Under the pieces are notes generated by a model. It was given only the letters and a program-made list of their open reading frames with translations, was not told where the DNA came from and made no database searches. A DNA stretch of 38,515 bases from Pseudolabrys sp. (lineage in GTDB: Bacteria; Pseudomonadota; Alphaproteobacteria; Rhizobiales; Xanthobacteraceae), in assembly GCA_009694265.1 (NCBI GenBank), contig SHVM01000012.1, forward strand, positions 1 through 38,515, written 5' to 3'. Below are positions 14,950-27,085 of the stretch, piece by piece. The position numbers and the translations under genes are program-made. Numbering within the stretch: the first letter of the stretch is position 1; each line of letters opens with the position of its first letter.

Positions 14950-16230
14950 TCAGCCGAAAATGTCGGCTACGATGCCGTTATACCAGTCGACCGACTCCTT
15001 ATAATTCTGCTTGCGGATATCGGCGGACTCGCCCTTCTGGCTGACGAAGCCCGGAGCCGCCTTGATCATTCCGTCGCCCGGCTCGAAGTTTCCGCCGACC
15101 TTGATGTCGTCGTCGGGCGCGATCAGGCTCCAGCAGGTGTTGCTATAACGCGCCGGGAAGGCACGCGACTTGACCAGCTCGGAGCGGATGATCATGGCCG
15201 CCACCTTGGCCTGGCTGTTGGCGGAGAACGCCGATTTCGGCATGTCGCCGGCAATCGAGGAATCGCCGACCACGAAGATGTTGGCGTCGACCTTCGACTT
15301 CATATTTTCCGGATCGATCGCGCAGAAGCCGGACGCATCGGCCAGCCCCGCATCGCGCGCGATCTTGCCGGCCATCTGCGCCGGGATGACGTTGACCAGC
15401 GCGGCTTTATAGGTGGCGAGATCGGTCTTTACCTCGCCGGTCTTGGGATCGACGCCCTTGATGCCGCCATGCACCTTGGGGTCCTGCCACTCGATCATGC
15501 CAGGGTAATGCTTCTCCCAGCCTTCCATGAACACGCCCTGCTTGGAGAAGGCGGGTTTCGGATCGACGATGATGATCTTCGACTTCTTGTAACCCTTCTT
15601 CTTGAGCACATGCGCGAACATCGACACGCGCTCATAGGGTCCCGGCGGACAACGGTACGGATTGGGCGGCGCCACCATCACGATCAGATCGCCGTCCTTG
15701 AGCGCATTGAGCTTCTTGACCAGAAGCTCGGTCTGCGGCCCCGGCTTCCAGGCATGCGGCATGATCTGCGCCGCCGCTTCGGAATAGCCGGGCACCGATT
15801 CATATTTAAGGTCGATGCCAGGCGCGATCACCAGCCGGTCGTAGGCAACCCGGCCGCCGCCCGCGAGCACCACTTGTTTCTTGTCGCGGTCGATGGAGGC
15901 CGCCATGGAATGGACAACCTTGACGCCGGCTTTCCTCACCTTGTCGTAATTATGGGTCAGCGATTTGAGGTTGCGGAAGCCGCCGACATAGAGATTGGAA
16001 AAGAAACAGGTCGTGAAGGTCTTGGACGGCTCGATCAGCGTGACGTCGATCGCGCCGGCGGAATCCTTGGCCACGTAACGAGCGACGGTCGCCCCGCCGG
16101 GTCCGCCACCGATCACGACGAGGCGCGGCTTGGCCTGGCCGAAAGCGGATGGCGCGAATAACGAAGTCGACAGCGTCGCAAGCGAAGCGCCCGCGAGCAC
16201 CGAGAAGTTACGGCGTGTCAGTTCAGTCAT
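14950..16230 (-). CDS. soxF: Flavocytochrome c sulfide dehydrogenase flavoprotein (SoxF/FccB)
   Basis: A 426-residue periplasmic FAD protein that oxidises sulfide and passes electrons to a cytochrome c partner. A Tat leader (TRRNFSVLAG) is followed by the Rossmann motif VVIGGGPGG. Three family cysteines are present: C75 in FTTCFFSN, the expected covalent FAD site, and C194 (NPYRCPPGPYER) and C366 (YSNTCWS), the redox pair. With cleavage after FGQA the first two become 42 and 161, as I recall for the Allochromatium enzyme. A strong ribosome-binding site (AAGGGGGA) precedes the ATG. The cytochrome gene lies 21 bases upstream. Confidence 0.92.
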   Translation of the reverse strand: MTELTRRNFSVLAGASLATLSTSLFAPSAFGQAKPRLVVIGGGPGGATVARYVAKDSAGAIDVTLIEPSKTFTTCFFSNLYVGGFRNLKSLTHNYDKVRKAGVKVVHSMAASIDRDKKQVVLAGGGRVAYDRLVIAPGIDLKYESVPGYSEAAAQIMPHAWKPGPQTELLVKKLNALKDGDLIVMVAPPNPYRCPPGPYERVSMFAHVLKKKGYKKSKIIIVDPKPAFSKQGVFMEGWEKHYPGMIEWQDPKVHGGIKGVDPKTGEVKTDLATYKAALVNVIPAQMAGKIARDAGLADASGFCAIDPENMKSKVDANIFVVGDSSIAGDMPKSAFSANSQAKVAAMIIRSELVKSRAFPARYSNTCWSLIAPDDDIKVGGNFEPGDGMIKAAPGFVSQKGESADIRKQNYKESVDWYNGIVADIFG

Positions 16231-16251: not shown

Positions 16252-16605
16252 TCATTTCTTGGCGATTTCGAAATAGGCAGCAAGCGCGGCGATATCGTCG
16301 TCATTCAAGCGGCTGGCGATGCTCTGCATCACCGGATTGGGCAGCGCCTTGGCGCGATAGGCCCTGATGACCTCCACGAAGTGTGACTCACCCAAACCGA
16401 AAATATTGGGAATCGTGCTGTCCGCCTTCGCCGTGCCGTGGCAGGTTATGCATTCGGTGGACAGGTATCGGCCGAGTTCGATGTCGGCGGTGCGCGCGAC
16501 GGTCAATCCTCCCGCGACTACGCAAGCGCAGCAAATCGCCGCCGCCATGCGCATGCTGCGCAGGATCGGGCCGATCACCCAACTCGCTGCAGTCCCGTCG
16601 GTCAT
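16252..16605 (-). CDS. Small monohaem cytochrome c, probable electron-accepting subunit for SoxF (FccA/SoxE-like)
   Basis: A 117-residue exported c-type cytochrome with a single haem site CITCH (C52, C55, H56). The likely distal ligand is the methionine of NPVMQSIASRL. The tail DDDIAALAAYFEIAKK is typical of class I cytochromes. The ATG at 16605 is preferred because GGAGAGG lies immediately upstream; ATGs at 16554 and 16548 would give a shorter leader. SoxE of Paracoccus is dihaem and about twice this size, so this is a reduced form. Position before soxF makes it the natural partner of the flavoprotein. Confidence 0.82.
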   Translation of the reverse strand: MTDGTAASWVIGPILRSMRMAAAICCACVVAGGLTVARTADIELGRYLSTECITCHGTAKADSTIPNIFGLGESHFVEVIRAYRAKALPNPVMQSIASRLNDDDIAALAAYFEIAKK

Positions 16606-16720
16606 CCTCTCCGCGGTTTCGTTCCGCCCCCTCCGCCGGCAATCGTGGCACGCGGCTACCGTCGCCGCATATCCTATCATTTCGTCCGCCGCCGACAAAT
16701 TGCCGCAGCGGATAGATGTT

Positions 16721-17398
16721 CTATTCGGCCCCCCGCCGCTGCAATTTTTCATCTTCCGGCGTCACATCGATAGCACGCGCCCTTCCAGTGACCTTCACCG
16801 GCGGCCGGCAGTCCTTCATACAGGGCTTGGCGTTCCAGAATGCCTTCTCGGCTTTATCGCGGTCGTCGTCGAAAAAGCCGCCCTGGTTCGGCATTTTCAC
16901 CTGGCCCCAGGTCGCGCGCGACAGCACGAATTTGTCATCCACGACATCGTTGAGATTGAGCACATAGGCGGTGACCGCATAGAGTTCCTCATTGCTGAGC
17001 GACTGCGCGTCGCCGAACGGCATGGCGCGGCGGATATAGTCGAACACGCTCGACAGATAGGGATAATACGAGCCGACGGTCTTGACCGGGTCGTGCGACG
17101 CCAGCGTGCCCTTGCCTTGCGCGAGTGGCGGCCAGCGCCCGGCGCTTTCGCCGAATTCGCCGTGACAGGCGGCGCATTTGTCCATGTAGACCTTCTCGCC
17201 CGCCTTCACCGATCCCTGGCCAGCAGGCGCGCCCTGCCCGCCGGGCAAAACGTCGATGTCCCAGCCGGCGATCTGTTCCGGCGTGGCCGTGTGCCCGACC
17301 CCGTAATTGCGCGGCGTATCTTTCTTCTGTGCCAGCGCCGGCGTAGCCACCGCGAGCAAGAGCAACGCCGAGAAAGCGAATTTAGCCGACTTCGACAT
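16721..17398 (-). CDS. soxD: Sulfur dehydrogenase cytochrome subunit SoxD (short, monohaem)
   Basis: Electron-accepting partner of SoxC in the SoxCD complex, which oxidises the sulfane sulfur on SoxY. The 225-residue protein has a Sec leader (MSKSAKFAFSALLLLAVATPALAQ), one haem site CAACH (C75, C78, H79) and a probable distal methionine M126 in RRAMPFGD. Paracoccus SoxD is dihaem and about 380 residues, so the second haem domain is missing. A C-x3-C pair (PCMKDC) near the end could form a disulfide. The start overlaps the end of soxC by 17 bases, confirming the pair. Confidence 0.88.
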   Translation of the reverse strand: MSKSAKFAFSALLLLAVATPALAQKKDTPRNYGVGHTATPEQIAGWDIDVLPGGQGAPAGQGSVKAGEKVYMDKCAACHGEFGESAGRWPPLAQGKGTLASHDPVKTVGSYYPYLSSVFDYIRRAMPFGDAQSLSNEELYAVTAYVLNLNDVVDDKFVLSRATWGQVKMPNQGGFFDDDRDKAEKAFWNAKPCMKDCRPPVKVTGRARAIDVTPEDEKLQRRGAE

Positions 17399-18650
17399 TC
17401 TCGACCTCCCCGCTGGCTTTAAGCGCCCAAGTCTGAATGCCGTTATTATGATAGATCGAATTGACGCCGCGAATTTTGCGCAACGCATCCTTGCTCGGCT
17501 GGACATAGCCACCCTCGTCCATGGCGCGCGATTGCAGCAGCAGTTCTTCGCCGTTCCAGTCGAACTCGGAATAGAAACGCACGCAGGCCTTGTCGAACAC
17601 CGGCCCGTCGATGCGCGCCGCTCGCCAGTTGCGGCCGCCATCGAGCGAGACGTCCACGCGCTTGACCTTGCCGCGGCCAGACCAGGCGAGCCCGGAAATA
17701 ATCGTAAAGCCCTTCTGCTTGAGTGGCGCTTGCGGCGACGGCGAGGTGATGACGGATTTGGCGTCCATCTCGTAGGTGAATTTGCGCGCCTTGCCGTTCG
17801 CCAGCAGATCGGTGTATTTCGCGGTTTCCTCGCGCGTGTACCAGGGCTGATCGCCAATCTTGATGCGGCGTAGCCACTTGATCCAGACATTGCCCTCCCA
17901 TCCGGGAACGACAAGACGAACCGGATAGCCCTGCTCGGGGCGCAGCATCTCGCCATTCGAGCGATAGGCGACGATGCAATCGTCGAGCGCCTTGGACATC
18001 GGGATCGAGCGGTTCATGGCCGCGGCGTCGCCGCCTTCCGCCATGATCCATTTCGCGTTTGTCTTCAGGCCGGCCTGCTCGAGCAACAGCTTCAACGGCA
18101 CGCCGGTGTATTGCACGCAATGCACCATGCCGTGGGTATATTGACAGCCGTTGAGCTGGGCGCCGCGCCATTCCATGCCGGAATTGGCGGCGCATTCGAG
18201 GAAATGGATACGATTGACGCGTGGTAGCCGCTTGAGGTCTTCCAGTGTGAAGATCAGCGGCTTGTCGACCAGGCCGTGAAGCATCAAACGGTAATCGTTC
18301 GGATCGATCTCGGCGATGCCGGAATGATGGCGCTCGAAGCACAGCCCGTTCGGCGTGATGATGCCGTCGAGTTCATGCAGCGGCGTGAAGCTGACCGACG
18401 ATTCCGGCGTGGCGGTGAGCCACGACACGGTGCGCCGGACGACAGTTTTTTCATATTTCGAGGGATTGCCATAGGCGCGCACGCCGACGCCGTCGCCAAG
18501 TTGCTTGGTCCAGTCGGCTATGTTGGGCGGCTGGTTATTCGGATTGCCGGCGCGCGCGGCGCCACCGGCCGCGCTGGCGGCGGCAAGTCCGGCTGCGCCC
18601 ACAAGAAACTTGCGGCGTGAAGCGCACTTTTTATCGGTCGGCTCGTTCAT
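17382..18650 (-). CDS. soxC: Sulfur dehydrogenase molybdopterin subunit SoxC
   Basis: SoxC is a molybdenum enzyme of the sulfite oxidase family that with SoxD removes six electrons from the outer sulfur of cysteine-S-thiosulfate on SoxY. The 422-residue precursor has a Tat leader (SRRKFLVGAAGLAAAS), as needed for a folded molybdoenzyme. The molybdenum-ligating cysteine is C153 in LECAANSGMEWRG. The C-terminal dimerisation domain (AWSGRGKVKRVDVSLDGG) is complete. The ATG at 18650 has GGGAG six bases upstream, so the longer ATG at 18671 is rejected. Presence of soxCD predicts full oxidation to sulfate without stored sulfur. Confidence 0.94.
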   Translation of the reverse strand: MNEPTDKKCASRRKFLVGAAGLAAASAAGGAARAGNPNNQPPNIADWTKQLGDGVGVRAYGNPSKYEKTVVRRTVSWLTATPESSVSFTPLHELDGIITPNGLCFERHHSGIAEIDPNDYRLMLHGLVDKPLIFTLEDLKRLPRVNRIHFLECAANSGMEWRGAQLNGCQYTHGMVHCVQYTGVPLKLLLEQAGLKTNAKWIMAEGGDAAAMNRSIPMSKALDDCIVAYRSNGEMLRPEQGYPVRLVVPGWEGNVWIKWLRRIKIGDQPWYTREETAKYTDLLANGKARKFTYEMDAKSVITSPSPQAPLKQKGFTIISGLAWSGRGKVKRVDVSLDGGRNWRAARIDGPVFDKACVRFYSEFDWNGEELLLQSRAMDEGGYVQPSKDALRKIRGVNSIYHNNGIQTWALKASGEVENVEVG

Positions 18651-18682
18651 CGGCAGCTCCCGGCGGATCACCGCCTGTTATC

Positions 18683-18717: not shown

Positions 18718-20406
18718 CTAGACCCCCGAAATTTTCACGCTGGTGTTGGGGATCACCCGCACCGACTTTTCGGCCGCGACATAGCGCTCCACCAGCTCCC
18801 AGACCGGCGGGCCTTGCGTCCCCTCGTTCACGCTCGCCCAGCCGGCGACCGTGTATTCCTTGGCCGGTTCGATCGGCTTGCCGGTTTTCAGATGTGTCAT
18901 GGCCGAGATGCGGTTCCCGATTGGTTTCGTCACGTCGATGGCGTAGCCGAGCCCGCCGCAGCGTACCATGTCGCCGCCCTGCTGGTAATAGGGATCGGGA
19001 TTGAACAGATTGTCGGCGACGTCTTCGAGGATGTCCTTGAGCCGCTCGCCGGTCATCGGCAGGCGATAGACCTGCGGATAGGTAATCGCGGTCGCGTTGT
19101 GGATGTCCTCCATTGTGATCGGCGCTCCAGGCAGCACGCTGGTACCCCAGCGGAAACCGGGCGAAAGCACGATCTCGGCATCGCGCTCCTTGAGCAGCGC
19201 CGCGCAGATCAGATCGTCGAAGGTTCCGTTGAAATTGCCGCGCCGATAGAGAGTTGAGTCCGACCGCCCCACCACCCGCGCCAGTTCCTTGGCATAGGGC
19301 GCGCGTGCTTTGGTGATTGCCGCGGTCATCTCTGCGTCGGGCTTGATGGCGTCGGCAAACAGCGGGATCAGCTTGTAACGGAAACCCTTCACCACGCCGT
19401 TCTGCACATCGAGATCGAGGCGCGAGACAAACTTGCCGTGACTGCCGGAGGCAATCAGCAAAGTATTGCCCACCTTGACCGCTTCCGGCAGCGCGTCGTG
19501 GGTATGGCTGGTGAGAATTACGTCGATGCCGAGCACGCGCGCGGCCAGCTTGCGGTCGACATCGAAGCCATTATGCGAGAGCAGCACCACTAGCTGCGCG
19601 CCGTCCTTGCGTGCCTTCTCGACATTGGCGCGCACGTCCTCCTCGCGGATACCGAATGACCATTTCGGCATCAGCCAGCGCGGATTGGCGACCGGCGTAT
19701 AGGGGAAGGCCTGGCCGAGCACGGCGATCTTGACGCCGCCCTTCTCGAACATCTTCATCGGCTCGAAGGCCGGCTCATTCCATTCGGTGTCGCGGATATT
19801 GAGCGCGAGGAACGGAAATCCAAGCCCCTTGATCAGTTCCTTGACGCGCGCTTCGCCATAGGTGAATTCCCAATGGCCGGTCATGGCGTCGGGCTTGAGC
19901 AAGGTCATGCAGTCGACCATGTCTTGGCCGCGACTCGCGTTGGAGCCGAGCGAACCCTGCCAGGTGTCGCCGCCATCGAGGAACAGCATTTTGTCGCCGC
20001 GCTCGCTACGCACGCGCTTGACCACGGTGGCGAGCCGGTCGAGGCCGCCAATGCGGCCGTATGATTTCGCCAGCGCGACGAAATCTTCCGATGTCATCGC
20101 GTAAGCCGCGGCGGATTTTGTAGGGATACCGAAGCGTTTGAGAAAGTCACCGCCGGTGAGGTGCGGCGGCTGGCCCTTCGCCTCGCCGACGCCGAGATTG
20201 ACCGACGGTTCGCGGAAATAGACCGGCATCAGCTGGCCGTGAATGTCGGCAACGTGCAGCAGCGTGACATTGCCAAGGGCGTCAAACTTGAGCAGGTCGC
20301 TTTCGGTCAACTGCTGCTGGGCAAGCGCGCGCGTGAAACCGCCGGCGCCGGCCACCAGCGCCGCGGTGGCGGCGCCGACCTGAAGCATTTCGCGGCGGGT
20401 AATCAT
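18718..20406 (-). CDS. soxB: Thiosulfohydrolase SoxB (dimanganese)
   Basis: SoxB hydrolyses the terminal sulfone of SoxY-bound thiosulfate and releases sulfate in the periplasm. The 562-residue precursor has a Tat-like leader (TRREMLQVGAATAALVAGAGG). Metal-site motifs of the 5'-nucleotidase fold are DIHG (D54, H56), GGDTWQ (D147), GHWEFTYG (177-184, the SoxB form of the GNHE motif), SHNGFD and SHTHD. The C-terminal 5'-nucleotidase domain is complete. It lies between soxXA and soxC, separated from soxXA by a palindromic intergenic repeat. Confidence 0.95.
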   Translation of the reverse strand: MITRREMLQVGAATAALVAGAGGFTRALAQQQLTESDLLKFDALGNVTLLHVADIHGQLMPVYFREPSVNLGVGEAKGQPPHLTGGDFLKRFGIPTKSAAAYAMTSEDFVALAKSYGRIGGLDRLATVVKRVRSERGDKMLFLDGGDTWQGSLGSNASRGQDMVDCMTLLKPDAMTGHWEFTYGEARVKELIKGLGFPFLALNIRDTEWNEPAFEPMKMFEKGGVKIAVLGQAFPYTPVANPRWLMPKWSFGIREEDVRANVEKARKDGAQLVVLLSHNGFDVDRKLAARVLGIDVILTSHTHDALPEAVKVGNTLLIASGSHGKFVSRLDLDVQNGVVKGFRYKLIPLFADAIKPDAEMTAAITKARAPYAKELARVVGRSDSTLYRRGNFNGTFDDLICAALLKERDAEIVLSPGFRWGTSVLPGAPITMEDIHNATAITYPQVYRLPMTGERLKDILEDVADNLFNPDPYYQQGGDMVRCGGLGYAIDVTKPIGNRISAMTHLKTGKPIEPAKEYTVAGWASVNEGTQGPPVWELVERYVAAEKSVRVIPNTSVKISGV

Positions 20407-20536: not shown

Positions 20537-21808
20537 CTAATGCCGAATACCCGGCACGCTCAGCTTCAGACCTTCGTTCTGCGAGGCGAGATAAAACTCG
20601 AGGTCGCCATATTCCTTGGCGTCGGGCGGCAGCTCGTCGGCGCGGATGTTGACCTGGCACCACTGGAAGCGCTGGCGGATATCCCAGATCGCCAGCAGGC
20701 TGGTGCGCCAGGTGGGGAAGTGGTCGTACTGGCCCTTCGGCTCGCCCATCCATTGGCCGCGAATCCAGTGGTTTGCCGCTTTGCCGTGGCAGTCGGTGCA
20801 AGCCATGTTGAGCTGACCCAATTTGCGCTCGCTCAGCACCTTGCCGCGTTCCAAGGCCGCCTTGGCCGCCGGGCTGGCGGTGTCTAGTTTGATCGGCGTG
20901 CCGTTGGCGAGGAAGTGCAGATAGACCGACATCGCGCGGTTCTCATCGGTCTCCATCAGCCAATTGGCGCCGGTGGTGGCCTTGGCGTGACGGGCGACGA
21001 ACTCTTCCACGGCCAGTACCTTGTTGAGTCGCGGCTCCCATTTCGGCATCGATGCCGCCCAGGTCTTGAACGCCGCCTTCGCATTGCTGTGACAGCTTTT
21101 GCAAGACTTGCCCGCCGCACCGGCTTGCTTCCAGAGCTCCTGCGCCTTGTCCACAGCCCACATACCGGGATTCTCGATCGGGTCGAGATTCTCGCGCTTC
21201 TCGACCGGCACCGGACGCTTGCCCGGATCGTCGAGCACGGTCTTGAACGGCGCCGGCGATTTCAGCGTCTTGAGAAACGCAACCATGTCGTTGATTTCTT
21301 GCTCGTTGAAGAAGCCGTGGGTTCCCCAGGGCGGCATCACGGTCTCGGGATTGTAGACGCGCGCGTCGAAGACCATGTTGAACAGCCACTCGTCCTCGCG
21401 CCCGGCATTGCCGATTTCCGACAGATCAGGACCGACATTGCCCGGCAGGGCGGCGCCGCCGGCCGGACCCATCGCGTGGCAGGCGAGACAAGAGCCGCCG
21501 CGGGCGCGATCCGCCACCAGCTTGGCGCCATTCGCGGCATCGCCGGTAATCGGACCGGCGAGCTTGCGCGGCGTCTTCGGCGCCGGCGCCGTTGCCAGAT
21601 TTCCCAGTGTGTTGTATTTCGAATAGTCGCGCGTCGGCCAGCCGGCATAGCGCTTCCAAGGCCGGGTCGAAGCGTCGTCTTTGGTTTCGAGCGGCGCTTC
21701 TTTCTTCTTGGCTTGCGCGTTGGCGTCAGAGCTGGCCACCACATATGCGCCGGCCACAATCACTGCAACGGCAACGGCGCTGCTCACCAGAATCCCTCCA
21801 CGCGTCAT
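20537..21808 (-). CDS. soxA: SoxX-SoxA fusion: c-type cytochrome SoxXA in one polypeptide
   Basis: SoxXA oxidatively couples thiosulfate to the SoxY cysteine. Normally SoxX and SoxA are separate subunits; here one 423-residue frame holds both. After a leader (VSSAVAVAVIVAGAYVVA) residues 80-185 form the SoxX domain: haem site CLACH (C107, C110, H111), GNVGPDLSEIG, distal M158 in VMPPWG, then INDMVAFLKTLK. A linker (about 186-222) joins the SoxA domain with haem sites CKSCH (C236-H240) and CTDCH (C337-H341). The active-site cysteine is C384 in RFQWCQVNIRA. Three haems are predicted. GGGAGG precedes the ATG. No separate soxX exists in the window, so the fusion must serve both roles. Confidence 0.93.
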   Translation of the reverse strand: MTRGGILVSSAVAVAVIVAGAYVVASSDANAQAKKKEAPLETKDDASTRPWKRYAGWPTRDYSKYNTLGNLATAPAPKTPRKLAGPITGDAANGAKLVADRARGGSCLACHAMGPAGGAALPGNVGPDLSEIGNAGREDEWLFNMVFDARVYNPETVMPPWGTHGFFNEQEINDMVAFLKTLKSPAPFKTVLDDPGKRPVPVEKRENLDPIENPGMWAVDKAQELWKQAGAAGKSCKSCHSNAKAAFKTWAASMPKWEPRLNKVLAVEEFVARHAKATTGANWLMETDENRAMSVYLHFLANGTPIKLDTASPAAKAALERGKVLSERKLGQLNMACTDCHGKAANHWIRGQWMGEPKGQYDHFPTWRTSLLAIWDIRQRFQWCQVNIRADELPPDAKEYGDLEFYLASQNEGLKLSVPGIRH

Positions 21809-21875: not shown

Positions 21876-22199
21876 TCAGCCCACGGTTATTTTTTCTTCC
21901 GCGGTGATGACAGTGCCGTCGTCATCGGTCCATGTAAACTTGAACGTGCCGCTCGCGTCCACTTTGGCGTAGAACTGCATGTAAGGATTGGCCGCGATCG
22001 CCGGATCGAGATTGGCGCTGAACACCGGCTTGCCGTTGAACTCGGCTGTGAACTTGTTGATGATCTTGCGCGGGATCGTCTTGCCGTCCTTATCCTTGCG
22101 CTGACCCGATTCCATAGTATGCGGCATCAGCGTCTTGATCTCGATGACTTCGCCCTTCTTAGCTTCCTTGGGAAGCTTGAGCCGCGGTTTTTCCGCCAT
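21876..22199 (-). CDS. soxZ: Sulfur carrier complex subunit SoxZ
   Basis: SoxZ is the 107-residue beta-sandwich partner of SoxY and keeps the carrier arm accessible to SoxXA, SoxB and SoxCD. Typical features are the start RLKLPKEAKKGEVIEIKTLMPHTMESG, the central TAEFNGKPVFSANLDPAIAANPY and the end FTWTDDDGT. There is no leader: it travels with SoxY, whose Tat signal exports the folded pair. AGGAGAG precedes the ATG. It lies 41 bases after soxY. Confidence 0.95.
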   Translation of the reverse strand: MAEKPRLKLPKEAKKGEVIEIKTLMPHTMESGQRKDKDGKTIPRKIINKFTAEFNGKPVFSANLDPAIAANPYMQFYAKVDASGTFKFTWTDDDGTVITAEEKITVG

Positions 22200-22240: not shown

Positions 22241-22696
22241 TCAACCGCCGCAGCCGCCGATGGTGACCTTCACCTGCTTCTGGCCGGTGAAGAATTCGCC
22301 CTTGCTGGTCTTGGCGACCACGATGATGTTCTGAGTGGTGGCGAGGCGGATACGGGTCGAGGCTTCCGCCTTGCCCGACATCGACGAGAAGTGGAATGTC
22401 GCCACGCCCGGACGCGGATTGCCATCGGCGACGACAAGAATTTCGCTGACATAATTCTCGGCCGTCATCGGCGCGTCGACCGCAACCGACAGCGGTACGG
22501 TGTTGCCGTTTTCCGCAATCTCGGGCAGTTCGATCGAAATCTTGGCCTTTTCGGCCGTCTTGCCGCCGGTGAATTTGGCGATGTCGTCCGCCGCTTCCTT
22601 GGCGGTGGCAAAGGCTCCCTCATTCCAGCCGACGATTGTGAGCGCCGCGCCACTAGCGCTGAGCGCAAGTGCTGCGCGACGCGATAATTGCCGCAT
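22241..22696 (-). CDS. soxY: Sulfur carrier protein SoxY
   Basis: SoxY covalently carries sulfur intermediates through the Sox cycle. The 151-residue precursor has a Tat leader (LSRRAALALSASGAAL), and the protein ends in the swinging-arm sequence GGCGG, where C149 is the attachment site. The ATG at 22696 (MRQLSRRAA) gives a compact leader and is preferred to one at 22738. The gene begins the YZ-XA-B-C-D run, 148 bases downstream of soxW. Confidence 0.95.
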   Translation of the reverse strand: MRQLSRRAALALSASGAALTIVGWNEGAFATAKEAADDIAKFTGGKTAEKAKISIELPEIAENGNTVPLSVAVDAPMTAENYVSEILVVADGNPRPGVATFHFSSMSGKAEASTRIRLATTQNIIVVAKTSKGEFFTGQKQVKVTIGGCGG

Positions 22697-22789
22697 TGTA
22701 GTGACCTCCCGAACTGACGTTTCCTTTGGGGCTCGCAAGCCACCCCGCCCGATTCAGACCATAGCGGCGACTGGGGGCCTGTTCAAATC

Positions 22790-22844: not shown

Positions 22845-23423
22845 TCAACTCGGCAGCGATTTGACGTAATCCCGGAAGCTCTTACTCTCGTAGGCCTTTT
22901 CGCGAACGTAACGGAACATAGCGAGAAAATCGTCGGGCCGCAGATAGCCGGGCGCGCGCGCCACTTCGCGCTTGGCGGGGGCTAGAACTTTCAAAGGCCC
23001 TGCTCGCTCGCCAAAAAACTGGAAGGTGGGCGTGAAGCGCACACCATATCTAGCGGCCAATTCCTTTTCCGAAAGTGACGTGCCGTCGAAATCCGTAACT
23101 TTGCGCGAGCCGATGATGTTGAGTTGCAGCACCTCGAAATTCGCCTTGATGTAGCCGGAAATGCGCGGTTGCGCGAAATTGACGAAATGGGTTTCCTTGC
23201 AATAGGGGCAGCCCTTGAGTTCCCACATGATCGCGAAGCGCTTGCCCTCTTTGTGAGCGCCTTCGAGGTCGTCGCTAAGATCCAGGAAACTCTCGACAAA
23301 CCACGGCTGCTTATAAAGCCCGTCATCGGTGAGAATCGGCTCCTCGGCGCGCGAGCCGGTTATCCCCAGCATGCCGAGGCCTGCTGCCGCACCTACCAGT
23401 AGATGTCGCCGCGTGTATGTCAT
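22845..23423 (-). CDS. soxW: Exported thioredoxin-like protein SoxW
   Basis: A 192-residue periplasmic thioredoxin-fold protein with leader TRRHLLVGAAAGLGMLG and redox site GCPYC (C72, C75). RFTPTFQFF supplies the cis-proline region. SoxW-type proteins receive reductant from the membrane protein SoxV and keep Sox proteins (probably the SoxY arm) reduced. Here it is the first gene upstream of soxY, while soxV is 2 kb away on the same strand. SoxW rather than SoxS is chosen by size and place; the naming of these thioredoxins is not strict. Confidence 0.8.
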   Translation of the reverse strand: MTYTRRHLLVGAAAGLGMLGITGSRAEEPILTDDGLYKQPWFVESFLDLSDDLEGAHKEGKRFAIMWELKGCPYCKETHFVNFAQPRISGYIKANFEVLQLNIIGSRKVTDFDGTSLSEKELAARYGVRFTPTFQFFGERAGPLKVLAPAKREVARAPGYLRPDDFLAMFRYVREKAYESKSFRDYVKSLPS

Positions 23424-23489: not shown

Positions 23490-24221
23490 ATGTGGGCCTG
23501 CTGTGCGCGCGGCGCAATCCTCGCTCTTGTTCTGATGCTCTGGGCCGGTCACGGCAAGGCTGACGATTTGGCCGATTTCAATGCCGCGGTCGAGAGCGCA
23601 TCGGCGCATAACCGGGTGGCGATCGGTTACCTGCGCACCGGCAATACCGATCTGGCGTCGCTCGAAATCGACCGGCTGCGCGAGGCCTGGGGCAGACTGG
23701 CCACCCGTTTTGCCACCAAGCGCCCCAGCGCATTCGACGGCAATCCGCTGTACGGCAGCCTGTGGACCGGCGTGAGCGCGCGGCTGGTCACCGCTGATTT
23801 GATGCTCAAGACCGGCCAGGCGGAGGCCGCAAGCGACGCGCTCAACGCGCTGCGCAGCGATCTTTACACCTTGCGCAAGGCGAGCGGCGTCGTGGTGCTG
23901 GCCGATTGCGTGCGCGACGCCAATGCGGTCATGGACGCCTTCATGGCCTATAACGACCGCGCGCTCGATTGGGGTAAACTGGAGATTCGTTCCGACGTCG
24001 CCAGCAAGGCCTCGAGCTACGGCGGTATTCTCGATCGTTGCGACAGCATCGCCGGCGACACGATACGCAAGAACCCGGAATTTCGCCGGCTGGTGGATGG
24101 CGCCAAAGCCAGTCTCCAGTTAGTCCCGCAAGCCATTGCGGCCCGCGACGGCAACCTGCTGCATCGCGTGCTGATCGAATTACGCTCGTTCGATAATCTG
24201 CTGGCGTTCAGGTTTGGGTAA
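23490..24221 (+). CDS. Exported helical protein of unknown function, sox-linked
   Basis: I do not recognise a family. The 243-residue protein has a leader (ARGAILALVLMLWAGHGKA) and a mature part that looks all-helical. There are TPR-like helix pairs (VAIGYLRTGNTDLASLEIDRLREAWGRL; ADLMLKTGQAEAASDALNALRSDL). There is no CxxCH haem site. Mature cysteines occur singly (VLADCVRDAN, LDRCDSIAG). It is divergent from soxW and 18 bases upstream of an MFS transporter, so the two are probably co-transcribed from a promoter shared with the sox genes. A periplasmic sensor or scaffold role is possible but not shown. Confidence 0.7.
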   Translation: MWACCARGAILALVLMLWAGHGKADDLADFNAAVESASAHNRVAIGYLRTGNTDLASLEIDRLREAWGRLATRFATKRPSAFDGNPLYGSLWTGVSARLVTADLMLKTGQAEAASDALNALRSDLYTLRKASGVVVLADCVRDANAVMDAFMAYNDRALDWGKLEIRSDVASKASSYGGILDRCDSIAGDTIRKNPEFRRLVDGAKASLQLVPQAIAARDGNLLHRVLIELRSFDNLLAFRFG

Positions 24222-24239: not shown

Positions 24240-25418
24240 ATGATGTTCTTTGCCAATCGCGACATCAACCGCCTCGCCGTCCACGCCGCGCTGGTGTCGC
24301 TGGCCTGGAGCCTGGCCGGCATCTTTTTCACGGTCTACCTGCTGCGCGCCGGACTGCCGCTGGCGCAAATCTTTCTTGCCGCCGCCGCGATCCTTAGCCT
24401 TCGCTTTGTGCTTCGTCCGCTGGTGGTAATCCTCGCCCTGAGGATCGGAATGCGGCACGCATTCATCCTGGGAACATTCTTGTCCGCCTTCCAGTTTCCG
24501 GCCATCGCGCCGGTCGACGGCGTGGGCGCGGCCCTGGTGCTGTTCGTGGTTGTCTCCTCGCTCGCGCAAGTGTTCTATTGGACCTGTTTTCACGCCTATT
24601 TCTCTGCGCTCGGCGACATCGATCACCGCGGCAAGCAAATCGGCGCCCGCCAGGCGCTCGGCGCGATCGCCGGCGTGATCGGTCCGGCGGCCGGCGGCAT
24701 TTTGCTCACGACCGCCGGACCCTGGTTTGCATTCGGTGTCGCTTTCGCGATCCAGATCGCCGCCATCCTTCCGCTGCGCCACGTCGAGGAGCCAAAGATC
24801 GCGCAGCCGTCACCGCGCGGCGCACTCGCTGCGTCAAGCCTGGGCATTCGGCTGTTTTTCATCGACGGCTGGATCACTAGCGGCTCGGCAACCGCCTGGA
24901 GCATCGTCATGTTTCAGGCGCTGGATGCGCGCTATGACAATTTCGGCGGCGTGCTCGCGCTGGCGGCGGTCGCCGGCGCGCTCGGCGGCATGGTGCTCGG
25001 GTGTTTCATGGACATGGGTCATGCCCGTCGCAGCGTGTGGCTGAATGCGATCATTCTGACGGTGAGCCTCATTCTCAAATCGGTCTGCGGCGACCATGCG
25101 GTGGCCGTCGTCGCTGTCGCCGTCGGCACCACTTTATTCAGCGGGCTTTACATGCCGTATTGGATGACGGCGGTCTACAATACCGGCAAACGCGCGCCCT
25201 GCACCTTCCGCTTTTATTTTGCATCGGAAGGCGGCTGGGATGCGGGCGGCGTGTTCGCCAGCCTGGTGGCCGCGGCGGTTTGCGCCGCTGCGTTACCGCT
25301 CGAGGCCGTCATCCTGCTCGCGCTTCCAGCGGTCGCCGTGCAGGCGTGGCTGCTCGATGCGAGCTATGCAGGCCATGAGCGCGCGGACGGCGTGAGATCA
25401 GCCGGCCCATTGCGCTAA
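24240..25418 (+). CDS. Major facilitator superfamily transporter, sox-linked
   Basis: A 392-residue inner-membrane protein with about 11-12 hydrophobic segments and a central cytoplasmic loop (LRHVEEPKIAQPSPRG). Typical charged MFS loops occur between helices (DIDHRGKQIGARQALG; DMGHARRSVW). The substrate cannot be inferred. It follows the exported helical protein by 18 bases and lies inside the sox island between soxW and soxV, so import or export of a sulfur compound is a reasonable guess. Its stop overlaps that of soxV by four bases in convergent orientation. Confidence 0.82.
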   Translation: MMFFANRDINRLAVHAALVSLAWSLAGIFFTVYLLRAGLPLAQIFLAAAAILSLRFVLRPLVVILALRIGMRHAFILGTFLSAFQFPAIAPVDGVGAALVLFVVVSSLAQVFYWTCFHAYFSALGDIDHRGKQIGARQALGAIAGVIGPAAGGILLTTAGPWFAFGVAFAIQIAAILPLRHVEEPKIAQPSPRGALAASSLGIRLFFIDGWITSGSATAWSIVMFQALDARYDNFGGVLALAAVAGALGGMVLGCFMDMGHARRSVWLNAIILTVSLILKSVCGDHAVAVVAVAVGTTLFSGLYMPYWMTAVYNTGKRAPCTFRFYFASEGGWDAGGVFASLVAAAVCAAALPLEAVILLALPAVAVQAWLLDASYAGHERADGVRSAGPLR

Positions 25419-26161
25419 CCGATCTTGCCGAGCACCGGAAATGTCTCGATCAGCCAGAACGCGATCGTGGACATCTGGCCGGTGAAAATTAATATGCCGG
25501 CGGCAATCAGAAACGCGCCCATACCCTTCTCGATCAAATCGAGCCGTTTGCGAAAGCGTGCGCTCCAGCGCATGAATCCGGAGGCAAATCCCGCCGCGAT
25601 CAGAAACGGCAGGCCGATGCCGAGCGAATAGACAAATAACAGCCGCGCGCCCTCAGCCGCGCTGTCGGCGGCGCCCGCCATCAACAAAATCGCCGTGAGC
25701 ACCGGACCCACGCAGGGGCTCCAGCCGAAGCCAAAGGCCAAGCCCATCGCATAGGCGCCGATGATGCCGGCGGGATTCCCGGCAAGGCCGATGCGCGCGC
25801 TGCGATCGAGCAGCGGGATGCGGATCACGTGCAGGAAATGCAGCCCCATGAGCACGATCAGCGTGCCCGCGATATAGCCCAGAATGCCCAGATAGGCGCC
25901 GACCGCCTGCCCGATCCAGGACGCGGTGGCGCCCAGCGCCACAAACACCGTGCTGAATCCGGCAACGAAACACAGCGCCACCAGCAATACCCGGCCGCGC
26001 GCCAGCGCGCCTTCCTTGCCGCTCCCGGCATCGCGCAACTGGTCGATCGACACGCCACCCATATAAGCCAGATAGGGCGGCACCAGCGGCAGCACGCAGG
26101 GCGATGCAAACGACAGCAGCCCGGCAACGAAGGCCCCGCCCGTGGTGACGTCCAGACTCAT
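25415..26161 (-). CDS. soxV: CcdA-type thiol-disulfide transmembrane reductase SoxV
   Basis: A 248-residue six-helix inner-membrane protein of the CcdA/DsbD-beta family that moves electrons from cytoplasmic thioredoxin to the periplasm. The two redox cysteines are C22 (FASPCVLPLVPPY) and C150 (GWSPCVGPVL). CcdA proteins also serve cytochrome c maturation, but its place divergent from soxS and soxR matches the soxRS-soxVW arrangement of Paracoccus and supports SoxV. It would feed the thioredoxins SoxW and SoxS. Confidence 0.87.
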   Translation of the reverse strand: MSLDVTTGGAFVAGLLSFASPCVLPLVPPYLAYMGGVSIDQLRDAGSGKEGALARGRVLLVALCFVAGFSTVFVALGATASWIGQAVGAYLGILGYIAGTLIVLMGLHFLHVIRIPLLDRSARIGLAGNPAGIIGAYAMGLAFGFGWSPCVGPVLTAILLMAGAADSAAEGARLLFVYSLGIGLPFLIAAGFASGFMRWSARFRKRLDLIEKGMGAFLIAAGILIFTGQMSTIAFWLIETFPVLGKIG

Positions 26162-26252
26162 CGTGGATTCTCGTGAATCGACATATTCGTGTTTTGTGAT
26201 ATATTTCCCGAACGATCAACATGAGTCTTTTGACCTGTTTTCACGAAAGAGA
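26162..26252. promoter_or_regulatory. Divergent soxV-soxS promoter region
   Basis: This 91-bp AT-rich gap serves both soxV (leftward) and soxS (rightward). It contains GATTC-TCGT-GAATC (26166-26179), a perfect five-base inverted repeat, and an ATATTC half-site at 26183-26188 followed by an imperfect GATATA. In Paracoccus the corresponding region is bound by SoxR (from general knowledge). No perfect ATTC-N8-GAAT site is present here. Confidence 0.5.
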
Positions 26253-26696
26253 ATGAAGTTGACGAGCAAGGCACCGGTATTGAAATATTTTTCTCGCATC
26301 GCGCTGTTCGGCGCCCTGTTTATAGCGTTGAATGCGCCGGGCGCGCGCGCGGCGGAACTCGTAATGTTCGAGCAATCGGGCTGCGCCTGGTGTGAGGCCT
26401 TCGATCGCGAGATCGCGCCGGTCTATGACAAGACGGCCGAAGGCGCGCGCGCGCCGCTGCGCCGCATCAATATTTCACGCGCGGTGCCGTCTGACCTTGC
26501 TTTCATCGACGCCGAACGGCTAACGCCGTTGTTCGTGCTGGTCGACAAGGGCCGCGAATTCGGCCGCATTCGCGGCTATCCGGGCGAGGAACACTTCTGG
26601 GGCCTGCTCGGCGTGCTGATCAAGAAACTGGACGGTTCGGGAATTCCGGGAGAACGCATGCAACTGCCGAAAAAACTATTGCGCATCATCGGCTGA
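26253..26696 (+). CDS. soxS: Exported thioredoxin-like protein SoxS
   Basis: The 147-residue precursor has a Sec leader (FSRIALFGALFIALNAPGARA) and redox site SGCAWC (C44, C47) at the start of a compact thioredoxin fold. It lacks a long N-terminal extension, like Paracoccus SoxS, which reactivates SoxY. The ATG at 26253 follows GAAAGAGA and is preferred to a start at 26142, which would run into soxV. It is followed 44 bases later by soxR. Confidence 0.86.
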   Translation: MKLTSKAPVLKYFSRIALFGALFIALNAPGARAAELVMFEQSGCAWCEAFDREIAPVYDKTAEGARAPLRRINISRAVPSDLAFIDAERLTPLFVLVDKGREFGRIRGYPGEEHFWGLLGVLIKKLDGSGIPGERMQLPKKLLRIIG

Positions 26697-26740: not shown

Positions 26741-27085
26741 ATGGAATTGCATCATCTCGCCAGCCGCGAACGCTCGAACGAACTCGATCGCATGGTCGGC
26801 AATGCCAAGCGCGCCAGCGACTTCCTCAAGGCGCTCGCGCATGAAAGCCGGCTGATGATCCTGTGCATTCTCGCCGAGGGTGAAAAATCGGTGAGCGAAT
26901 TGGAAGACATCCTCAACCTGCGCCAACCGACGGTGTCGCAGCAGCTGGCGCGGCTGCGCGCGGACGGCCTGGTGTCGACGCGGCGCGACGGCAAGGCGGT
27001 CTATTACAATCTCGCCAGCCAAGAAACGCGCGTCGTCATTGGCGCGATCTATGACGTGTTCTGCAAAAAAATCCGCAAGCGCTGA
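26741..27085 (+). CDS. soxR: ArsR-family repressor SoxR with BigR/SqrR-type persulfide-sensing cysteines
   Basis: A 114-residue winged-helix dimer-type regulator. The recognition region is LEDILNLRQPTVSQQLARLRADGL and the wing is VSTRRDGKAVYYNL. Two cysteines, C42 (LMILCILAEGE) and C108 (YDVFCKKI), match in position and spacing those of BigR and SqrR, which form a disulfide or polysulfide bridge when persulfides rise and then leave DNA. It is expected to repress the sox promoters, including the palindrome at 18683. It is not related to the redox regulator SoxR of E. coli. Confidence 0.9.
   Translation: MELHHLASRERSNELDRMVGNAKRASDFLKALAHESRLMILCILAEGEKSVSELEDILNLRQPTVSQQLARLRADGLVSTRRDGKAVYYNLASQETRVVIGAIYDVFCKKIRKR

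Follow-up and report, generated by a model that had tools for sequence, protein, structure and literature searches.

A single-chain SoxXA in the sox cluster of Pseudolabrys sp.: a putatively exchangeable, ready-fused module with a predicted bis-histidine haem 1

SoxX and SoxA are usually two proteins, which stand at the start of thiosulfate oxidation. The classical SoxA of Rhodovulum sulfidophilum carries two haems with His/Cys ligation, and where haem 1 is present in SoxA it is commonly ligated by His and Cys. The thiosulfate enzyme TsdBA of Marichromatium purpuratum makes tetrathionate. For SoxAX, the accessible text of the literature describes the joining of thiosulfate to a cysteine of SoxY, with a favoured route through the haem-ligating Cys (PMC4423706, PMC6879331, PMC9562282); in the same partial text His/Cys ligation is given for the active-site haem only. 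Some authors claim that SoxAX does not need the heme cysteine for activity and works through copper instead (in the portion of PMC4423706 available to us), so even the textbook mechanism is disputed. In the R. sulfidophilum complex an edge-to-edge distance of 10.7 Å, short enough for fast transfer, is described between the haem of the catalytic domain and that of the electron-transfer domain (PMC4423706, PMC6879331, PMC9562282, each in part). Single-chain forms are also on record: as far as the available parts of these papers go, a fused SoxAX is reported for Beggiatoaceae (PMC11172852) and a fused SoxXA for Halorhodospiraceae (PMC8877833); the fusion as such is not new.

The window analysed here, that is, the whole stretch of 38,515 nucleotides from Pseudolabrys sp., carries on its minus strand one uninterrupted frame of 423 codons (20537..21808), soxXA, in which SoxX is fused N-terminal to SoxA in a product of 423 aa. 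The NCBIfam SoxX model (TIGR04485) matches residues 104-182 with 80.7 bits against a cut-off of 61 (model 2-78 of 78), and this domain core (21263..21499, minus) holds one haem c motif, C107-C110-H111, with M158 as the distal residue. The SoxA model (TIGR04484) matches residues 214-422 with 161.4 bits against a cut-off of 110 (model 1-211 of 212); the domain (20543..21169, minus) has two haem c motifs, C236-C239-H240 (haem 1) and C337-C340-H341 (haem 2), and the active-site C384 (codon at 20657..20659, minus). A preliminary description of the present locus had read a SoxX and a dihaem SoxA domain in a single frame; its coordinates are right, both domains pass the curated cut-offs, the motifs CLACH, M158, CKSCH, CTDCH and C384 lie where it placed them, and the strand, which it left unstated, is minus. 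Its point that a covalent SoxXA fixes a 1:1 ratio also follows from the single frame, since SoxX and SoxA are part of one covalent triple-haem chain.

The haem and active-site residues named above are strongly conserved. C107, C110 and H111 are invariant in 60/60 fused and 118/118 separate SoxX, M158 is kept in 60/60 fused and 117/118 separate SoxX (the remaining separate row has a gap), and the active haem 2 together with C384 is invariant in 60/60 fused and 126/126 separate SoxA. C384 aligns with Cys222 of R. sulfidophilum SoxA (1h31_A) and on this alignment is a candidate Cys ligand of the active-site haem. The best-matching solved structures for the product are the SoxA chains 1h31_A and 2c1d_A, while its front part matches the SoxX chains 1h31_B, 3oa8_B and 2c1d_B. 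In haem motifs, active-site cysteine and domain matches the protein resembles two SoxAX heterodimers, 1h31 of Rhodovulum sulfidophilum and 2c1d of Paracoccus pantotrophus. It differs from them in that they consist of two chains with Cys at the haem-1 ligand column, whereas the window encodes one chain with His. The haem-bearing parts of R. sulfidophilum SoxAX are all present on the single chain of the fused protein. An AlphaFold model computed from 17 alignment rows was poor (mean pLDDT 60.5, pTM 0.56), a quality too low for judging haem ligation or the docking of the two domains; with this model Foldseek nevertheless placed 1h31_A first (E 6.4e-05) and 2c1d_A next (E 2.1e-04). A further likeness is to TsdBA of Marichromatium purpuratum, described in the available part of PMC6879331 as a fusion of an electron acceptor with the SoxA-family thiosulfate enzyme that it serves, but that acceptor is dihaem and not SoxX, and 5lo9 appeared only as a weak match at rank 4 in Foldseek.

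The preliminary description had proposed mapping the fused form across genomes, and a full-length fused match was found in 28 of 100 (the window's own included), with one more cut by a contig end. By rank this amounts to 26 of 43 genomes in the genus (own included), 2 of 17 among other family members and 0 of 40 among other members of the order; one single-contig assembly (G004) and two four-contig assemblies (G026, G033) are among the carriers. A separate SoxA match is also present in 11 of the 28 (own included), and the other 17 have none at that sensitivity. Only separate SoxA was seen in 11 of the 43 genus genomes and no SoxA in 5, which means that the fused form is not essential in the genus. 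With up to four candidates scored per genome, 66 of 385 class genomes gave a match, two of them spanning both domains (own and G226), and 57 of 398 phylum genomes gave a match, the own genome alone spanning both. Among 369 gammaproteobacterial genomes, scored in the same way, 5 had a match at E ≤1e-50, all spanning both domains; fused proteins with a match poorer than E 1e-50, or interrupted at the end of a contig, would escape this search. It added three divergent gammaproteobacterial fusions, L221, L222 and L223, to the fused proteins collected before, with no soxY, soxZ or soxB matched in about 7 kb on either side (stretches L224, L225 and L226).

In the order of G1105 (f300) the fused form was found in 22 of 42 genomes and in the order of G963 in 2 of 5. 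A scan of named genomes gave 20 fused loci out of 23, in Pseudolabrys, other Hyphomicrobiales, one genome labelled Rhodopseudomonas, MAGs labelled Odyssella and one betaproteobacterial MAG; the records with a fused soxXA include Pseudolabrys sp. Root1462 (L028; an isolate according to its title) and a complete Indioceanicola profundi plasmid. The single-chain form is common to three classes, the Alpha-, Beta- and Gammaproteobacteria. Two loci of the scan have unusual arrangements: a MAG labelled Candidatus Odyssella has two fused soxXA in tandem (L025:3035-6212), the first with a long proline- and alanine-rich N-terminal extension followed by a hydrophobic stretch, and the betaproteobacterial MAG has an orphan fused soxXA (L027:4995-6272), with no other sox match in its 8-kb locus.

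We infer that order f300 is likely Beggiatoales, which fits the published fused SoxAX of Beggiatoaceae. Like that protein as presented in the available part of PMC11172852, the window's has SoxX and SoxA in a single chain with a separate soxX absent from the locus, and the f300 sequences fall in the same clade as the window's in both domain trees and likewise have His in the haem-1 column. The surroundings differ: three f300 loci (L203, L207 and L213) have the order XA-Y-Z-B, L208 has XA together with Y and soxB, and in L202 soxB precedes XA, as opposed to W-Y-Z-XA-B-C-D in the window, and the Beggiatoaceae Sox system is described, in the same partial source, as devoid of SoxCD, which the window's cluster has. 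The fused SoxXA of Halorhodospiraceae is similar in that SoxX stands at the SoxA N-terminus, in what the available text of PMC8877833 calls a single triheme protein.

The part of the chain between the two domains bears on whether they stay joined. A signal-peptide-like N-terminus (residues 1-31, 21716..21808, minus) ends in AQA at a putative cleavage site, and by hydropathy the linker (residues 184-213, 21170..21259, minus) has no signal peptide. The hydropathy maximum over a 15-residue span is 2.6 in residues 1-40 vs. 0.46 in residues 170-225. Export of SoxXA is predicted from this N-terminus. In a survey of 76 fused rows, duplicates from the same genomes included, a single one is hydrophobic close to the junction, whereas a hydrophobic N-terminal stretch was seen in 109 of 127 separate SoxA. 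Mean pN/pS over 12 pairwise comparisons with relatives is 0.20 for the SoxX domain, 0.37 for the linker and 0.25 for the SoxA domain, and for the junction (residues 175-225) it is 0.23 in 12 pairwise comparisons, which shows purifying selection; by the low ratio and the lack of a signal peptide, this stretch is made as protein and selected as such. A single chain could nevertheless be made and its linker cut after export to give ordinary SoxX and SoxA subunits. The faster evolution of the linker relative to the two domains is in favour of such cutting and the sequence is compatible with it, but the single-chain form has been kept across three classes, and we know of no protease motif in the SoxXA linker. 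We consider later cutting unlikely, although it is the alternative that survives best.

The fused gene lies in a sox cluster whose minus-strand genes run soxV, soxW, soxY, soxZ, soxXA, soxB, soxC, a soxD-like cytochrome gene, a small cytochrome gene and a soxF-like flavoprotein gene. Directly around it are soxZ (21876..22199; TIGR04490, 113.8 bits), soxY with a true GGCGG carrier arm (22241..22738; TIGR04488, 145.5 bits, cut-off 125) and soxB (18718..20406; TIGR04486, 844.9 bits), so that the order soxY-soxZ-soxXA of the preliminary description is confirmed, with a true SoxY and SoxB. Also on the minus strand are a soxW-like thioredoxin gene (22845..23423; Pfam Thioredoxin_2), soxC (17382..18671; TIGR04555, 653 bits), a gene for a soxD-like c-type cytochrome (16721..17398; Pfam Cytochrome_CBB3, the start chosen inside a longer ORF), one for a small, soxE-like c-type cytochrome (16252..16752; Pfam cytochrome matches near the cut-off), one for a soxF/FccB-like flavoprotein (14950..16230; a distant sulfide-quinone-reductase-type match far below the cut-off) and soxV (CcdA/DsbD-like, 25415..26161; a DsbD-type match below the cut-off). 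The soxS- and soxR-like genes of the cluster are on the plus strand, the former for a thioredoxin (26142..26696; Pfam Thioredoxin_2 below the cut-off) and the latter for an ArsR-type regulator (26741..27085; an ArsR/SmtB subfamily model over the cut-off). The names soxW, soxD, soxE and soxF are assumed here from position, and soxV, soxS and soxR are tentative names. The interval from soxW to soxV holds two plus-strand genes; the first (23490-24221) matched nothing in Pfam, and the second (24240-25418) looks like a membrane transporter. A complete Sox set, soxXA, soxYZ, soxB and soxCD (soxD by position), is present in this single cluster, and the order W-Y-Z-XA-B-C-D recurs in relatives.

In the mechanism that we propose, thiosulfate would be joined to the SoxY arm cysteine by the SoxA half (haem 2, H341/C384), via C384; the electrons would then reach the SoxX haem (H111/M158) within the one chain, and from there a c-type acceptor. 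Haem loading and activity are presumed in this scheme, and the fusion may speed or orient the electron transfer.

The fused protein might instead be a side branch, with thiosulfate handled by separate SoxXA pairs elsewhere in the genome. The window's assembly (2.49 Mb, 119 contigs, 91% complete) has soxX and soxA matches on the window's contig only inside the fused gene, and elsewhere it holds a pair of separate soxX, both exceeding the cut-off with 75.1 and 70.6 bits, and a pair of separate soxA (228.9 and 221.3 bits), in the order soxF-X-Y-Z-A, on contigs C97 (L063:5985-9285) and C74 (L064:7486-11153). The earlier statement that no separate soxX is present thus stands for the window but fails genome-wide, and the preliminary description had itself named a separate soxX elsewhere in the genome as an observation that would refute its reading. 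Such genes exist to the letter, but they belong to a different set: the SoxY of both separate sets match TIGR04487, the SoxY-related “AACIE arm” paralogue (200.4 and 184.9 bits, cut-off 172), but score too low to pass as true SoxY. The two pairs over the cut-off, and the 11 of 28 fused-gene genomes with a separate SoxA as well, favour the side-branch reading. Against it, the separate sets carry the AACIE-arm SoxY with no soxB seen beside those on C97 and C74, the sole soxB found in the 91%-complete genome adjoins the fusion, and 17 of the 28 carriers have no separate SoxA at that sensitivity. The separate soxX and soxA could share work with the fused protein, and a second soxB could be missing from a genome of this completeness; a mere side-branch role seems to us improbable, a little more so than later cutting of the linker.

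We turn to descent, where the preliminary description had supposed that soxX left its place upstream of soxY and came to lie ahead of soxA. The SoxA-domain tree has one branch that splits 46 fused from 109 separate rows (SH-aLRT 100), the stem of the fused clade being long at 1.28 changes per site, and in the SoxX-domain tree one branch splits 45 fused from 103 separate rows (SH-aLRT 93); SoxA rows shorter than 180 aa, SoxX rows shorter than 70 aa and near-copies had been dropped. With L221 added the support for the fused clade is 99.7 (SH-aLRT, 13 of 44 rows). Adding L222 lowers it to 26, and L223 groups with the separate-gene SoxA of L164 and L183 (SH-aLRT 100). Over 44 rows, 15 of them fused, one clade for all fused SoxXA is rejected (p-AU 0.0206), and a single origin with it; with L223 outside the main fused clade, the domain trees indicate that the fusion of SoxX to SoxA arose at least twice. 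In L164 (665-2130), kin of the independent fusion L223 (1384-2577), the soxX and soxA frames overlap by 4 bases, an arrangement from which a fusion can arise.

The SoxB of the same loci is discordant with the fused clade. SoxB of fused loci as one clade is rejected (p-AU 0.0033, 20 fused of 83 rows, a single one from order f300), while for the alphaproteobacterial fused loci alone one SoxB clade is not rejected (p-AU 0.285), which gives no support for transfer within the class. In their best-matching domain the f300 fused proteins share 48-60% identity with that of the window, and the SoxB and SoxY adjoining five f300 fused genes share 35-48%. Two separate-gene clusters of the window's own order (L065 and L066) present the reverse, with SoxY 54-57%, SoxB 65% and SoxC 71-72% identical to the window's as against 34-35% for SoxA and 27-29% for SoxX. 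We read the discordance and these contrasts in identity as transfer of a ready-fused soxXA between proteobacterial classes.

The slot between soxZ and soxB can be compared within the genus. Of the 11 genus genomes with only separate SoxA, six were examined (G016, G018, G019, G028, G029 and G036). G028 (L228:2013-9586) and G029 (L229:4269-11440) have the order W-Y-Z-X-A-B-C-D, and their SoxB (84-86%), SoxC (79%), SoxZ (80-81%) and SoxY (70-73%) are close to the window's, whereas their SoxA is only 25-26% identical, with separate soxX and soxA occupying the soxZ-soxB slot. This SoxA has no haem-1 motif, has Cys at the haem-1 ligand column, and groups with those of G018, G019, G036 and the family member L120 (SH-aLRT 99). 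The standard cluster of G018 and G019 is another one, C-D-X-Y-Z-A-B, with SoxB at 50-51%; in G036 a short contig shows X-A alone, and the set of G016 is of the AACIE-arm kind, judged by its SoxY ending. The same cluster with an unrelated pair in the slot means that the SoxXA module has been swapped in place within the genus. As the fused form is the commoner one in genus and family, the separate pair is probably the newcomer, and in G028 and G029 the fused gene was most likely replaced by it. A simple displacement of the two-gene form by the fused form is too simple an account, given that these two genomes keep a separate pair in the slot.

These observations leave little room for a shift of soxX within the lineage, out of its position upstream of soxY to one just ahead of soxA, followed by fusion there. 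Such a move would account for the separate-gene relatives of the order having X-Y-Z-A-B-C-D while in the window X is absent before Y and present before A, and two genus members do have an unfused soxX directly before soxA in the slot. However, both fused domains sit in a deep clade of their own, common to Alpha-, Beta- and Gammaproteobacteria, far from alphaproteobacterial soxX and soxA, and the fused loci do not have a SoxB that forms a single clade; the unfused pairs of G028 and G029 are of another, haem-1-less SoxA type; and L065 and L066 combine a SoxB identity of 65% with the low SoxA and SoxX values given above. We regard a local move as very improbable, and favour instead a module that most likely arrived already fused, the older soxX before soxY being lost.

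An error of sequencing or assembly that joined two genes has next to no chance of being the explanation, even in a genome fragmented into 119 contigs, as the same fused frame recurs in 28 of 100 genomes (the single-contig and two four-contig ones included), in Pseudolabrys sp. Root1462 (L028) and on the complete Indioceanicola profundi plasmid record, and the junction is without a signal peptide and under purifying selection; the fusion is neither chance nor assembly noise.

The fused clade is also set apart by haem 1 of its SoxA domain. Residue C114 of 1h31_A, which we take to be the second haem-1 ligand, lies 34 residues after H80, and H274 of the window's protein (codon at 20987..20989, minus) lies 34 residues after H240, in the column of this presumed Cys ligand of classical SoxA. 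The column is His in 61/61 proteins of the fused clade (60/60 before L221 was added), and all 61 keep the haem-1 motif. In separate SoxA (126 rows, two PDB chains included) it is Cys in 120: the 61 rows with the haem-1 motif have 55 C, 4 S, 1 H and 1 E, and the 65 rows without a motif at the haem-1 site (four of them, L159, L165, L169 and L173, gapped there) all have C, the motif being truly missing in 61 of the 126. Six additional separate SoxA rows all have Cys, one with the motif and five without it. The window's SoxA departs with H274 from a trait that is common, though not universal (55 of 61 separate SoxA that bear haem 1). The sole separate row with His in this column is L107 (1495-2463, minus). 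That the His comes with fusion as such is ruled out by the other two fused proteins, L222 and L223, both of which have Cys; the His goes with the clade.

From the His in all 61 proteins at the presumed ligand column, a bis-histidine haem 1 is predicted for the fused clade, and the retention of haem 1 in every row of the clade together with the swapped ligand suggests that it is kept for a use rather than as a relic. A limited literature search found no mention of a published bis-histidine SoxA haem 1. It is tempting to go further and see an exchangeable one-chain class, in which haem 1 was re-ligated from His/Cys to bis-His as a working third redox center; the ligand switch would then move between proteobacterial classes along with the fusion, and one-chain and two-chain forms would replace each other in the soxZ-soxB slot. 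We offer this only tentatively, as a reading somewhat short of probable.

Taken as a whole, the best explanation of the locus is a single-chain, thiosulfate-conjugating SoxXA, an exchangeable module gained ready-fused into the soxZ-soxB slot, with a haem 1 that would be bis-histidine throughout the clade and kept for a use, and we consider this highly likely. As far as the limited literature search goes, which found no mention of a Pseudolabrys SoxXA in print, the alphaproteobacterial spread, the SoxB discordance, the swapped slot, the at least two origins and the haem-1-column His appear to be new.

The single-chain SoxXA is a ready-made test object, since one gene makes expression simpler and the stoichiometry is fixed. 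The clade offers a natural swap of the haem-1 ligand, through which the role of this haem is testable by comparison and mutation, and the two-gene SoxXA of G028 and G029 in the same slot make a natural pair for comparing both forms. For annotation, where the fusion goes unrecognized, genomes that carry it may be recorded as having no soxX.
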